Assembly: GCA_009840525.1 (NCBI GenBank)
Contig: VXNP01000143.1
Span: forward strand, 1-53,882
Origin: Gammaproteobacteria bacterium
Lineage (GTDB): Bacteria; Gemmatimonadota; Gemmatimonadetes; Longimicrobiales; Gaopeijiaceae
Direction of reading: 5' to 3'
DNA length: 53,882 nt
Shown: positions 640 to 16,505 of the stretch, piece by piece
Position numbering within the stretch: the stretch's first letter is position 1
How the letters are laid out: every line of letters starts with the position of its first letter
The notes under the pieces: generated by a model
What the model saw: the letters and a program-made list of their open reading frames with translations, nothing else
Databases searched by the model: none
Told to the model about the DNA's origin: nothing
Program-made: the position numbers and the translations under genes

Positions 640-1374
640 TCATTCATGTCCATTCTCGCCCACCCGCCACTCGAAACGCGAGTGCAGCCCGTGCGTCGCT
701 TCGTTGCGCAGGCGGATGCCGCCGATGTCGCCACGGGTCTGGCCCCGGGCGATGGTCTGGCTGGGGGCGTGGATCTGGTTGAACATGTTCCGGAAGGTGA
801 CGGGCAGATCCCGGTCCCACCCGCGGATATCCTCGACGGACGCGTCCAGCAGCCGTCCCACCCGCACCCGCTTCACCTTGCCCTCATCCTCGATCTCGAT
901 AGGGACGAAGCGCGTGGGCAGCCACTCGGAGACGAAGCGCGCCAGCACCTCCCAGGGGCCCCCCGCCTCGCCGCGCAGGATGGCTTCCACGGCCTCCCGC
1001 TGATCCGGCGACGCTTCCTCGTCGATCAGCAGCACCTCGGTCCAGTCGCCTGCGATCATCAGCTGCGGGCACTCGAAGGCGACCACCGCGCGCACCCCGT
1101 CGAGGCGCGTGCCGCCGTATCGGCCCTCGTCGAAGCGGAGCGCCCAGTAGCCGATGCAGCGCTCGTGGGTGCAGTTCTGGCTGAAGTGGACGTGGCCCGG
1201 ACAGACCACCTGGCAGTTGCAGCTCTCGAACAGGAGGCCGCGAGCCCACCAGCCGCGGGTGTCCGCCGCGTGTGAGCCGACCGTTACAGGCGAGCCGGAC
1301 ATGGTGGGTGAACCGGACGAACCGGGCGGGCCGGACGCGCCTGGTTCAGCGTTTCCGGCCCGCCCGCGAGACAC
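640..1374 (-). CDS. DUF1326 domain protein
   Basis: A 244-residue soluble protein of the DUF1326 family. The diagnostic start of the domain, FESCNCQVVCPGH, lies near residue 50 and is followed by CTHERC and a conserved end (HSRFEW). The cysteines suggest metal or redox chemistry, but the family has no established function. The first 25-40 residues are Gly/Pro/Ser rich and poorly conserved-looking, so an internal Met at residue 25 could be the true start. It lies directly before the DUF2182 gene, a common pairing that implies a shared role. Its stop codon (TGA, 640-642) is in the same frame as the DUF2182 body. Confidence 0.85.
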   Translation of the reverse strand: MSRGRAGNAEPGASGPPGSSGSPTMSGSPVTVGSHAADTRGWWARGLLFESCNCQVVCPGHVHFSQNCTHERCIGYWALRFDEGRYGGTRLDGVRAVVAFECPQLMIAGDWTEVLLIDEEASPDQREAVEAILRGEAGGPWEVLARFVSEWLPTRFVPIEIEDEGKVKRVRVGRLLDASVEDIRGWDRDLPVTFRNMFNQIHAPSQTIARGQTRGDIGGIRLRNEATHGLHSRFEWRVGENGHE

Positions 1375-1396
1375 CGGGTCTCGCCCGTCCCGGACC

Positions 1397-2485
1397 TCAG
1401 CTGGTCGGGTAGAGCTGGGTGCCTTCGAAGGTCCCGAGGCCCGAGGAGTTGCGGTACGTGAGCGTGCCGATGCGGCCGGAGCTTCCCGCCATGCGGGCGC
1501 AGCCGATCTCCCCGTCCCGGTTGATCGCGACGAACTTCTCGCTGGGCACGAAGTCGAGGTCGACCGCCCGATACCTGCCCACGATCATCTCGATCGCGTC
1601 CTCGCAGGCCTCCTGCGGCGAACGCCCCTCGCGCATGCGCCCGACGATGAAGTACGACGCGCACGACTTGATCACGTCCTCGCCGCGTCCGGTGACCGCC
1701 GCCGCGCCCACATCGTTGTCGACGTAGAGCCCGGCGCCGATGATGGGCGAGTCGCCGATGCGGCCCGGAATCTTCCAGGAGAGGCCGCTGGTGGTGGTAA
1801 TGCCCGCCACGTCCCCGTTGGCGTCCACGGCCAGCACGTTGGTGGTGCCGTAGTTGAAGTCGTCCTCGCCGGGGAGCCCGCCGGTCTGCCTGCCGGGCCT
1901 GTCGCGGATGTGGTCGGGCGGACCCCAGTCGTCCCGCCGCTCGCTGTGGGTCTCGCGCCAGCGCACCCACGCCATGCGCGCGTTTTCGGTAAGCAGATTC
2001 TCGGCCTTGAAGCCGAAGGAGAGCGCGAACTCACGCGCGCCCGGTCCCACCAGCATGACGTGGTCGGTGCGTTCCATCACCAGCCGCGCGACCGACGACG
2101 GGGTCTTGATGTCCTCGATCGACGCCACCGCGCCGGCGCTGTAGGTCTTTCCGTCCATGCACGAGGCGTCGAGCTGCACCACGCCGTCCTCGTTGGGAAG
2201 CCCGCCGTAGCCGACCCCCGCATCATCGGGATCCACCTCGATCACGTTGGCGCCGCGCTCCACCGCGTCCAGCGCGCTCCCGCCCTCGGAAAGGATGTCC
2301 CACGCCTGCGCCATGGCGTTGCGCCCGGTCTCGTTGGTGTGGCTGGTGATGATGAGGGGGGCGCCCGCCTGCTGCCGCCTCAACAGCCCTCGGGGCCAGC
2401 GGCCGAGGGCCAGCGCTCCCGCGCCGACGCCGAAGCCCTGCTTGAAGAATCGCCGGCGGGATGAACCGGAAGCTGCTCTGGCCAT
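1397..2485 (-). CDS. N4-(beta-N-acetylglucosaminyl)-L-asparaginase, Tat-exported
   Basis: A 362-residue Ntn-hydrolase of the glycosylasparaginase family, which splits the GlcNAc-Asn bond or related beta-aspartyl substrates after self-cleavage before a catalytic Thr. The N-terminus has a twin-arginine motif (SRRRFFKQGF, residues 9-18), placing it in the periplasm. The body starts with IITSHTNETGRNAM. The nucleophile region reads NYGTTNVLAVD, with Thr214 the likely nucleophile, then TTTSGLSWKIPGRIGDSPII, the substrate-binding stretch. The HDTIG form of the nucleophile motif is replaced by YGTTN. The ATG at 2485 is preceded by GGAAAGGAGC at good spacing, so the longer open frame upstream is ignored. 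Confidence 0.9.
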   Translation of the reverse strand: MARAASGSSRRRFFKQGFGVGAGALALGRWPRGLLRRQQAGAPLIITSHTNETGRNAMAQAWDILSEGGSALDAVERGANVIEVDPDDAGVGYGGLPNEDGVVQLDASCMDGKTYSAGAVASIEDIKTPSSVARLVMERTDHVMLVGPGAREFALSFGFKAENLLTENARMAWVRWRETHSERRDDWGPPDHIRDRPGRQTGGLPGEDDFNYGTTNVLAVDANGDVAGITTTSGLSWKIPGRIGDSPIIGAGLYVDNDVGAAAVTGRGEDVIKSCASYFIVGRMREGRSPQEACEDAIEMIVGRYRAVDLDFVPSEKFVAINRDGEIGCARMAGSSGRIGTLTYRNSSGLGTFEGTQLYPTS

Positions 2486-2673
2486 GACTTGCTCCTTTCC
2501 GTCGATGGAGGGTGGGAATGCTCTATGCGGATTCGCTTCCCCGAGATTCCGTAGGATGATTGCAGGATCGTAGATGCCGCGCGGAAGGCGGGCAAGGCGG
2601 GCAAGCGGCGTCCCGGCGTGGAAGGCGAGCGCGGCGTCCCCGGCCCCCCGGGGGCATCCGACGCTCGACGGGA

Positions 2674-4086
2674 TCACTCCGCGAGCGATGGCCGCTCCGG
2701 GGGAAGCAGGCGCTCGATGGTCGCGGCCAGGGCCAGCACCGCCTCCTCGCCTGCGGGAGGACCCACCACCTGGAGGCCCACCGGGAGCCCGCGGGGGTCG
2801 AGCCCGACGGGCACCGAGGCGACCGGCAGACCGGTGAGCGAGAGCACGAACGTGGGGGCGAACCAGTCCACGTAGGTCTCGAGCCGGCGGCCCGCGATCT
2901 CCGTGGGATGGCTCTGGTCGACGGGGAAAGGAGGGACGGCGGTGGTCGGCGTGAGCAGGTAGTCGAAGTTGCGCCGCAGCCGGGCGAAGCGATGCCAGAT
3001 GTCGCTGCGCACCTGGTCGGCGCGGCCGAGCTGCCCCGCCGTGGCGGCGAGGCCCGCGCGGATGTTGCCGGACAGGTTGGGACCCAGTTCGCCGATGCGG
3101 TGCAGGCGGTCCTGGTGGTGGGCGACCATCCAGCGGCCGCGCAGGTCGAGGAAGGCCCGGCGGGCGTGCGAGAGGTCCAGGTCGATCTCCTCCACCGCGG
3201 CGCCCGCCCGACCCAGTGCGAACGCCGCCTCCCGGCACACGGCCTCCACCCCCGCATCCATCCCCATCCCCGCCAGGTCCGCGCAGTATGCGACGCGGGC
3301 GCCTTGTGCCACCCCTGCCCGGGCGGCGGCCGGGAAGTCCCGCCCCGCGACCGCCTGACGGAGGGGCGACCCCGCCGCCGGCCCCGCGATCGCCGCGAGC
3401 CCGAGCGCCAGGTCCTCCGCCGCGCGCGCCATCAGCCCGGTGACCATGATGGTGTCCCACACCCAGTCGGTGGGCTCGGTGGGGACCAGGCCGGGGGAGG
3501 GGCGTAGTCCGGTCACCCCGCAGAAGGCCGCCGGGATGCGGAGCGATCCCCCCAGGTCGGTCCCCTCCGCCAGCGCGAACATGCCGGTCGCCAGCCCCGC
3601 CGCCCCGCCGCCGGTCGACCCTCCGGCCGATAGCGCCGGGTTCCACGGGTTGCGGGTCGCGCCGAACACGTCGTTGAAGGTGTTGGCTCCCGCGGCGAAC
3701 TCCGGCGTGTTGGTCTTGCCGACCACCACCGCCCCGGCGGCCCGCAGACGGCGCACCACCAGCGCGTCCTCCGTGGGCACGTGGTCCGCGTACAGCGGGG
3801 AGCCGTACGTGGTGCGCAGCCCCGCCACCGCCGTCATGTCCTTGATACCGACCGGCACCCCGGCGAGCGGCCCGGGATCCTCGCCCCGCGCCAGCCGCCG
3901 GTCGATCGCGCGCGCGTCGTCGAGAGCGCGCGGGGAGCGTGTCACCACCGCGTTGACCACCGGGTTGTGCCGACGAACGCGGTCGAGCGCCGCCGACACC
4001 GCTTCCTCCGCCGACACCTCCCGCGCCGCCACCAACCGGGCGAGCTCGACGGCAGGGAGAAAGGCCAGATCGCCGACAGTGCTCAT
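2674..4086 (-). CDS. Amidase signature family hydrolase
   Basis: A 470-residue amidase (GatA/FAAH superfamily). The Ser-cisSer-Lys triad is visible: Lys82 in GIKDM, cis-Ser157 in GGSTGGG and nucleophile Ser181 in GTDLGGSLRIPA. The 24-residue spacing between the two serines is as in FAAH. No signal peptide is seen, so it is probably cytoplasmic, hydrolysing an amide of unknown identity. It is not a convincing GatA, since gatB/gatC are absent. It lies 188 bases before the asparaginase on the same strand, so both may belong to amide-nitrogen scavenging (inference). It is divergent from the deacetylase gene. Confidence 0.9.
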   Translation of the reverse strand: MSTVGDLAFLPAVELARLVAAREVSAEEAVSAALDRVRRHNPVVNAVVTRSPRALDDARAIDRRLARGEDPGPLAGVPVGIKDMTAVAGLRTTYGSPLYADHVPTEDALVVRRLRAAGAVVVGKTNTPEFAAGANTFNDVFGATRNPWNPALSAGGSTGGGAAGLATGMFALAEGTDLGGSLRIPAAFCGVTGLRPSPGLVPTEPTDWVWDTIMVTGLMARAAEDLALGLAAIAGPAAGSPLRQAVAGRDFPAAARAGVAQGARVAYCADLAGMGMDAGVEAVCREAAFALGRAGAAVEEIDLDLSHARRAFLDLRGRWMVAHHQDRLHRIGELGPNLSGNIRAGLAATAGQLGRADQVRSDIWHRFARLRRNFDYLLTPTTAVPPFPVDQSHPTEIAGRRLETYVDWFAPTFVLSLTGLPVASVPVGLDPRGLPVGLQVVGPPAGEEAVLALAATIERLLPPERPSLAE

Positions 4087-14225: not shown

Positions 14226-14843
14226 GAGCCTGAGGGACGAAACCTGTCCGGCACCCGGGCGGCAGGGGCGGCGCGGATTCCGTGGTCGGCCGCCCGAATT
14301 CGCATTCGTAGTCGCATGTTGCCCTGGACGGGTGGTCGCTCTGCCCATCGATGGGCAATTCCCTCCGCCACTGACTGGCAATCCCCTCCGCCACTGACAG
14401 GGATTCTCATCCGCCGTTGACCGGGGCATTCTCTTCTGCCGTTGACAGTACGGAGCGGGCGGTCCTGTCAGGTCTGGATCTCCCGCAGCGAGGCTGAATT
14501 CGCATTCGGTAGTCCCATTCTGGCATTGACGCGCGGTCGCTCGCGCTCTTTGGCGGGTAGTTCGCCGAGGGTCGGCCGCCCGCCCGCGCCACGTCCCGAA
14601 TTCACATCCGGGTGTCCCATGCTGCCATTGACGGATTCAGGGCCCGTGATCTGGCGAACTCCGAGATCAGGTCTTCCCCGGCCCGTCAGAGGCGCTGGCG
14701 GGCTCGGTGACGGCATTCGCAGGCAGCTTCCTCCTCCGAGGGTCTCCCAACCCCGTTTCGGCCACTACAGGGCATCCTGAGAGGCCGATTTCAGTGCTGT
14801 TATATTTGTACGTAAGTCATTGGGCAATCTCACGTTGGGAGGA
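14226..14843. repeat. Array of degenerate direct repeats before the DUF222-HNH gene
   Basis: This 618-base gap holds no convincing gene. Four contiguous units lie at 14354-14376, 14377-14399, 14400-14422 (23 bases each) and 14423-14447 (25 bases). They share GG-ATTC-CTCCGCC-TTGAC-like spelling and each ends in TGAC. Three 35-base units lie at 14296-14330, 14496-14530 and 14598-14632. Each starts GAATTC(G/A)CAT; the last two end CATTGAC and the first ends CTGGACG. All copies have the same orientation. A TATATT box at 14801-14806 may be part of a promoter for the next gene. Multiple short repeats at one end are known for IS21-family elements and near DUF222/HNH genes; no transposase is present. 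Confidence 0.7.
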
Positions 14844-16505
14844 ATGATGATCGCATCTGCGAACTCTTTCTACGGCACTCGCGGGAGGCCCTTTCCGGGA
14901 CCCGCGATGGTGCGCGAGCCGGCGGCTGTGCCGCTCGCCGCCAACCTCGCGCCCTCCGGTCCCGAGAACGCCCCGAATCGCGTCGCGGGCGATGGTGACG
15001 ACGACGAACTCCGCAGGCTGGGCGAGCGCATCGCCGAACTGGCGGCCCGCATCAACTCCGCCGAGGCGCGCATGATGACCCTCATCGCCGAGTTCGACCG
15101 CCGGGGCGGGTGGAAGGACGGCGGCTACTCCTCCTGCGCCGAATGGCTGGCCTGGAGGATTGGCACGAAGATCGGTACGGCCCGCGAACGGGTGCGGACC
15201 GCCCGCGCGCTCGAGCGCCTGCCACAGACGGCCGATGCTCTGAAGCACGGGACCATCTCCTACGCCAAGGTGCGGGCGCTCACCCGGGTTGCGACCCCCG
15301 AGCGCGAGGCGGAGTTGCTCGAGTTCGCGCGCGCGGGCTCGGCGGCGAAGCTGGAGCGGACGGTGCGCATGTTGAAGAAGTTGTCGCGCGACGCGGAGCT
15401 GACGGCCGAGCAGGCCCGGCGCCGCAGCCGCACCTTCTCGGTCTTCGTGGACGGCGACGGGATGTACGTGGTGAAGGGGCGGCTCGAGCCGGAGGTCGGG
15501 GCCGTGCTGATGCGGGCGGTGGAGGCGGCGTCGGATGCGCTGTTCCGACGCGAGGGCGATGCCCGGGACGCGGCGGAAAGTGGAAGGGGTGTTAGTCGCG
15601 AGGCCGCCGATGCGCGCCCGGAGCCGAAGCAGCGCCGAGCGGATGCGGTGGGGCTCTTGGCCGAGCGGGCGCTGACCGCGGGGTTCGGGGGTGGCGAGCA
15701 CCGTGAATCGGAAGGCGATGTGGATGACGTGGGTGGCCACCTCGATGAACTGGATGCAGCTCAGACTACCGAATCAGATGCAGCCCCGCGGGGAGCACCC
15801 GTGGGAAAGCCGGGAGCCAAAGCGGAGAATGCGGCGAACACGTCACCCCGCGTCGGGTCCGGCACCCGGGCCGAGCGCTACCAGGTCATGGTCCATTGCG
15901 ATGCCGCGACGCTCGCGGCCGAAGGCGAGCCCGGCCGCTCGGATCTGGATGGGATTCGCGTTTCCGCGGAGACGTCGCGGCGCATGGCGTGCGATGCCGC
16001 GGTGGTCGCGATGGTCCACGCGAAGGACGGCTCGATGCTGAACGTGGGCCGCCGGACGCGCACCATTCCACCGCACATCCGGCGGGCGCTGGAGGAGCGG
16101 GACCGGGGATGTCGGTTCCCCGGGTGCGGCTGCGGGTTCACCGAGGCCCATCACGTGAAGCACTGGGCCGACGGGGGCGAGACCAGTCTCCGGAACACGC
16201 TGCTCCTCTGTCGGCGGCACCATCGAGCTGTTCACGAGGGGCGGGTGAAGGTATCCGTCAACGGCGACGGAACCGTGCTGTTCTTCACGCCGAAGGGAAG
16301 GATGCTGGTGGACGCGCCGAGCAGGCCCAAGGCGGCTCGGGGTGGCGAGACACCGGGCTTGCCGCCGGTCCCATCGGTTCATCCCGGCGCCCCGGCGAAG
16401 GGCAAGGATCCCATCCTGTCGAACGGGGCTGCCCTTTACCGCGACTCAGCTATTCCCTGGGAGATCGAGGCCGCAGCCAGGGAAGCCATGGAGGAATCCT
16501 TGTAG
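14844..16505 (+). CDS. DUF222 / HNH endonuclease domain protein
   Basis: About 553 residues. The N-terminal half is DUF222 (from DDELRRLGERIAELAARINSAEA through the Arg-rich RVRTARALERLP segment). A low-complexity acidic linker of about 110 residues follows. The HNH nuclease module near residues 418-465 has CRFPGCGCGF, EAHHVKHWADGG, an Asn in LRNTLLLC and RRHHRAVHEG, giving the Cys-x4-Cys/Cys zinc ligands and His-His metal site. This architecture is the 13E12-repeat family, common as multicopy mobile-looking genes whose role is unsettled. GGGAGGA directly precedes the tandem ATGs at 14844 and 14847. The repeat array just upstream supports mobility (inference). Confidence 0.88.
   Translation: MMIASANSFYGTRGRPFPGPAMVREPAAVPLAANLAPSGPENAPNRVAGDGDDDELRRLGERIAELAARINSAEARMMTLIAEFDRRGGWKDGGYSSCAEWLAWRIGTKIGTARERVRTARALERLPQTADALKHGTISYAKVRALTRVATPEREAELLEFARAGSAAKLERTVRMLKKLSRDAELTAEQARRRSRTFSVFVDGDGMYVVKGRLEPEVGAVLMRAVEAASDALFRREGDARDAAESGRGVSREAADARPEPKQRRADAVGLLAERALTAGFGGGEHRESEGDVDDVGGHLDELDAAQTTESDAAPRGAPVGKPGAKAENAANTSPRVGSGTRAERYQVMVHCDAATLAAEGEPGRSDLDGIRVSAETSRRMACDAAVVAMVHAKDGSMLNVGRRTRTIPPHIRRALEERDRGCRFPGCGCGFTEAHHVKHWADGGETSLRNTLLLCRRHHRAVHEGRVKVSVNGDGTVLFFTPKGRMLVDAPSRPKAARGGETPGLPPVPSVHPGAPAKGKDPILSNGAALYRDSAIPWEIEAAAREAMEESL

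Follow-up and report, generated by a model that had tools for sequence, protein, structure and literature searches.

Upstream of a DUF222-HNH gene in the 53.9-kb window (the whole stretch of DNA that was analysed), long repeats form a conserved, fixed-distance DNA array of a kind that accompanies nearly every DUF222-HNH copy in the genome of origin, that of Candidatus Palauibacter (Gemmatimonadota), a sponge-associated bacterium. The repeats of the window are genuine and fall into two unrelated kinds: next to the long units stand four short units which, judging from their sequence, are probably the relict end of an IS21 element and a separate passenger. For the long units we favour, at a probability of roughly 0.6, a role as the cis-acting array of a multi-copy DUF222-HNH family that spreads, or spread in the past, in the form of a compact element. 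Homologous repeats serve as the ends of a dispersed single-gene element in related Longimicrobiales, which suggests a previously undescribed kind of mobile element.

Two kinds of repeats in front of the gene

The repeat region is flanked by a TonB-type receptor gene and the DUF222-HNH gene. It holds three long units (14293-14330, 14493-14530 and 14595-14632) and four contiguous short units (14353-14446), all on the forward strand, and both sets had been recognized in the preliminary description. The core of the long unit, GAATTCRCATYCG, has exactly three exact occurrences in the window, at 14296, 14496 and 14598, and none on the opposite strand. These are the starts originally reported, but the full unit, CCCGAATTCACATNCGCGNGTCCCATTCTGCCATTGAC, measures ~38 bp rather than the 35 bases first assigned to it. 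In a sequence-model search, long unit 1 scored as a degenerate copy (R1 E = 0.18), with an orthologous unit in two other genomes of the genus (G003 and G006), while units 2 and 3 were strong (R1 E = 1.2e-9 and 3.1e-12, respectively); a position weight matrix of the long unit gave zero matches in shuffled loci. Unit 3, the last of the array, starts 252 bp before the start codon. It is followed by a leader common to the paralogous copies (14633-14846, forward strand; 75–88% identity to paralogues), which contains a conserved GTTATATTT box at 14799-14807 and a ribosome-binding site, and then by the gene itself (14847-16505, forward strand; 552 amino acids), at whose 3′ end, about 16502, homology with the paralogues ends.

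The individual short units are 22–25 bp long (14353-14375, 14377-14398, 14400-14421 and 14424-14446, forward strand) and, together with their flanks (14342-14447, forward strand), resemble IS21 ends found in the genus (L305/L306 and L369), so that the whole stretch is a probable relict IS21-family end. Ends of the IS21 family are built of direct repeats (PMC10122671). Like the short units, these are tandem repeats of ~24 bp starting TGTCAA; the real IS21 elements of sister genomes terminate in a pair of tandem 24-bp repeats that begin with TGTCAATGGC, and the outer terminus of the short-unit array, read leftwards from 14447, is TGTCA. Ungapped alignment of the short unit with the IS21 end of genus mates matched 18 of 25 positions, with a period of 23–25 bp, and 0 of 5,000 shuffles were as good. 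The short units had initially been taken for shortened versions of the long ones, which could not be established: alignment of the two kinds reaches a score equal to that of the IS21-end match, but does so over a common 13-nt half, TTCTGCCRTTGAC. Because period and terminus favour IS21, we read the short units as an IS21 end rather than as relatives of the long units, and treating both as one family is unsupported. No further short unit, and hence no second, inverted IS21-type end, was found elsewhere in the same genome or in 10 genus mates, and no genuine IstB was found in the former. Separately, at a contig end in another genus genome (G008:C22, L369, about 3738-3791), an IS21-type end interrupts the leader of a DUF222-HNH gene.

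The array across the genome and the genus

DUF222-HNH genes are multi-copy in this genome, with about ten loci. A genome-wide search for the long unit returned 25 matches with E < 1e-3 at 10 loci, and all 25 sit upstream of DUF222-HNH genes in a single orientation, which bears out the early suggestion of a repeat tied to the HNH gene. Weaker matches (E of 0.007 and up) were either degenerate units within these arrays or scattered and probably due to chance. When positions 14226-14860 were used as a query, paralogous units and leaders were recovered at the same 75–88% identity, co-located with DUF222 matches. Two of the loci (C66 and C83) are on contigs that break off not far into the gene downstream of the units, and at a third (C123) the gene has decayed. 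Only two DUF222 loci are without units: C36, where an integrase-bearing element has cut off the 5′ half of the gene, and C44, which is divergent. The link recurs across the genus, where the long unit was found in 10 of 11 genomes, the one genome without a match being 67% complete. Most of the 19 further genus loci with units show a DUF222-HNH gene or end before it; a truncated unit with no gene was seen at G001:C58.

The geometry of these arrays is tightly kept. All units face the gene in 46 of 46 arrays, most unit spacings are 77–83 or 99–104 bp (typically about 81 or 102 bp), and the start of the last unit lies 251–253 bp from the start codon in all 27 arrays with a measurable start, although these counts are not independent events because the copies are related. 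Between the two most diverged groups the long unit retains 75% identity, whereas 38-bp windows across the leader have a median of 44%, and the unit ranks among the most conserved of these windows. A palindromic, parS-like core in the unit did not rise above column-shuffled controls.

The window copy is an insertion, with the TonB-type receptor gene on one side of the site and the downstream gene on the other. It is present in the source genome (G000) and, as an orthologous copy, in G003 and G006, whereas G002, G004, G008, G009 and G010 have no insertion at this site. Three insertion-free genomes with full intergenic alignment have a conserved ~40-bp stretch in common at the site; a target duplication is unreadable here because the intergenic DNA has diverged. 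Downstream of the Palauibacter genes, no 3′ inverted unit above chance was found in six copies, and these copies may therefore be decayed or domesticated; together with their divergence of 10–25%, this means that they may not be mobile.

Several copies show rearrangements of other kinds. Two copies in G000 (C86 and C121; L039 and L036) have upstream and downstream flanks that are swapped relative to other genus genomes, reflecting either recombination between copies or misassembly. A ~3.8-kb tyrosine-integrase (Phage_integrase) element interrupts the HNH gene of the C133 copy (L042) at the equivalent of window positions 16059-16076, where the break shows an 18-bp repeat. A further DUF222 gene has been split in two at the equivalent of 15365-15380 (C141a, L038, and C36, L046), with an McrBC pair by its 5′ half and a tyrosine integrase by its 3′ half. 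In G008:C22 (L369, about 912-3360) a long unit is interrupted, at GCCATTGA, by a tyrosine-integrase element.

Inverted ends in Longimicrobiales and a predicted ParB-like fold in DUF222

In Longimicrobiales we identified an element of ~1.8 kb that is dispersed and carries DUF222-HNH as its sole gene. Its ~44-bp inverted ends start GTCCCAT both in a complete chromosome (OX638356) and in a second complete species (OX639991), and are homologous to the long unit; ends of the same GTCCCAT type occur at other Gemmatimonadota loci too. The Palauibacter unit aligns without gaps to the Longimicrobiales subterminal unit B, with 0 of 5,000 shuffles as good, and to the 3′ inverted end, with 2 of 5,000. At up to three mismatches, the end-type unit is found 24 times in OX638356 (control matches, 0), in + orientation upstream and inverted downstream of DUF222-HNH genes, with few solo exceptions, and extra same-orientation units are present at the 5′ end of the element. 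Nine copies at unrelated loci in this chromosome are 93.4–97.0% identical, and two internally deleted derivatives (about 0.8 kb) retain both ends and remnants of the gene. Given inverted repeats, extra 5′ units and a sole gene, the repeats look like ends on which the protein would act to move the element.

Flanks outside the ends differ, with no target-site duplication visible at any inverted-repeat element in Longimicrobiales and no precise empty site found for them; the intergenic DNA is too diverged. De novo searches around other DUF222 genes of this family turned up, for the most part, no inverted ends above shuffles. Beyond the inverted end, three OX638356 copies (L281, L286 and L291) have extra homology in common in their upstream flanks, where a palindrome-like stretch, CCCTGACGTAACGTTAGGGT, is seen. 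One element (L292, 4428-6074) carries a 410-aa open reading frame between its end unit and unit B, which we read by eye as an IS110-type transposase.

The window protein matches PF02720 (DUF222, 100.1 bits) and PF01844 (HNH, 24.4 bits) above the Pfam cut-offs, and 30 of 30 relatives match both. The HNH nuclease motif (residues 427–464; 16125-16238, forward strand) has histidines, asparagine and cysteines that are invariant in the 30 relatives (H435/H436, N450, H458/H459 and cysteines 422, 427 and 455), and the region is structurally like the TagI, McrA and Cap5 nucleases. Searches gave no PADLOC defence match, no RuvC domain match and no Cas1.

Inside DUF222, residues 68–182 (15048-15392, forward strand) form a predicted ParB/Noc/KorB-type DNA-binding domain. 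Compared with Noc (7ol9), the predicted fold reaches Z 9.9 over 103 aligned residues at 2.6 Å, bearing in mind that helical folds can reach a Z near 9 without kinship, and the top 14 structure-match rows for these residues are all ParB, Noc or KorB. The full-length model is poor outside residues 50–180 (mean pLDDT 54.8); in a domain-only model (mean pLDDT 88.7) the match recurs at Z 9.6. HTH_ParB matches weakly at seven DUF222 copies in the source genome, and scores of 13.7–17.0 bits do not reach the Pfam cut-off of 22.6. In an hhalign comparison, the domain and the ParB of the same genome are collinear over 80 columns, with 29% of positions identical, but the match is weak (E = 0.033, probability 1.5%). 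Overall, the models predict that the DUF222 N-terminus folds like the DNA-binding domain of ParB, Noc and KorB, proteins whose sites are parS, NBS and OB. The likeness covers only residues 68–182, and DUF222 differs from these proteins in having an HNH nuclease as partner domain and a long unit without a significant palindrome.

A dispersing element or a set of operators

We infer that the protein binds the units through DUF222 and that the HNH domain cuts DNA. In the mechanism we propose, the DUF222 N-terminus would most likely recognise the units and the HNH domain would act as a nuclease cutting at them, with movement of the element to follow. In Palauibacter the 3′ inverted copy is missing, and the 5′ array, which remains under constraint at a set distance from the gene, probably serves regulation as a binding array and may also support residual mobility.

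The main rival is a pure operator role: the units would be binding sites through which the gene is regulated, by DUF222-HNH or by some other protein, and the copies would have spread by ordinary duplication, gene conversion and horizontal transfer rather than through any activity at the repeats. Such a role fits the fixed 252-bp distance to the start codon, the near-fixed spacing, the constraint on the long unit and on the TATATTT box, and the lack of a 3′ inverted unit in Palauibacter, and the exchanged flanks of two copies in the source genome are what recombination between copies or misassembly would produce. However, it does not account for what is seen in Longimicrobiales, where the 3′ copy is inverted, deletion derivatives run from end to end and near-identical copies sit at loci that are unrelated; we consider it possible but unlikely.

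The preliminary description had also raised the idea of a landing zone, with the units as attachment or target sites for other mobile elements. One supporting case was found in the genus, the integrase element at GCCATTGA within a unit of G008:C22, and in OX638356 a transposase-like open reading frame (by eye IS110-type) follows an end unit. Such insertions are nonetheless few, and a landing zone, which we judge improbable, would require neither fixed spacing nor a constant distance to a single gene nor conservation between species. Still less probable is a structured guide RNA, encoded by array and leader and serving the HNH nuclease as in IscB: a conserved non-coding leader does precede the HNH gene, but it yielded no more than 12 consensus pairs over 265 columns, the covariation term being small, and Rfam gave zero matches in the window, on which grounds the idea was dropped. 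A relict IS21-family end, the other origin first considered, is plausible for the short units, and extending it to the whole repeat region is hardly credible even though IS21 ends carry direct repeats (PMC10122671) and the short units match those of genus mates better than any of 5,000 shuffles, as the long units lie at 10 loci with no IS21 in a genome without genuine IstB, are followed by a DUF222-HNH gene rather than accompanied by IstA and IstB, and turn their TG-type terminus towards that gene, opposite to an IstA-side end, which largely refutes an IS21 end for them.

Returning to a DUF222-HNH element, one of the closest known counterparts is the multi-copy REP13E12 (13E12) family of Mycobacterium tuberculosis, known here from descriptions, which likewise consists of DUF222-HNH repeats and whose biological function is stated as undefined in the portion of the source covered (PMC13061034). 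The portions covered also describe REP13E12 copies as prone to gene conversion with one another and the family as an attachment site for prophages, hosting phiRv1 (PMC13061034, PMC9317374, PMC10589994); in Palauibacter, integrase elements lie inside copies of the DUF222-HNH gene. Within the literature covered, in part and with subscription journals mostly outside it, neither a same-orientation upstream unit array nor inverted terminal repeats are described for REP13E12, nor are inverted ends or a ParB-like domain for DUF222 or REP13E12. IscB/TnpB elements and casposons are alike in being compact elements around a non-DDE nuclease, and IscB has the same HNH fold; unlike them, the DUF222-HNH element comes without a RuvC match, guide-RNA evidence or Cas1.

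More tentatively, DUF222-HNH might be the sole gene of an undescribed class of transposable elements, in which the ParB-like domain would read the terminal and subterminal repeat arrays, the HNH domain would drive dispersal and REP13E12 copies would be members or relics. The enzyme of such a class would be an HNH nuclease in place of a DDE, HUH, tyrosine or serine enzyme; to our knowledge, HNH is not an established DNA transposase. Repeated DUF222-HNH genes occur in several of the genomes examined as well as in M. tuberculosis, and the predicted ParB-like domain, the fixed-distance repeats and the inverted ends together provide a testable hypothesis on what DUF222 may bind and whether these genes move themselves.
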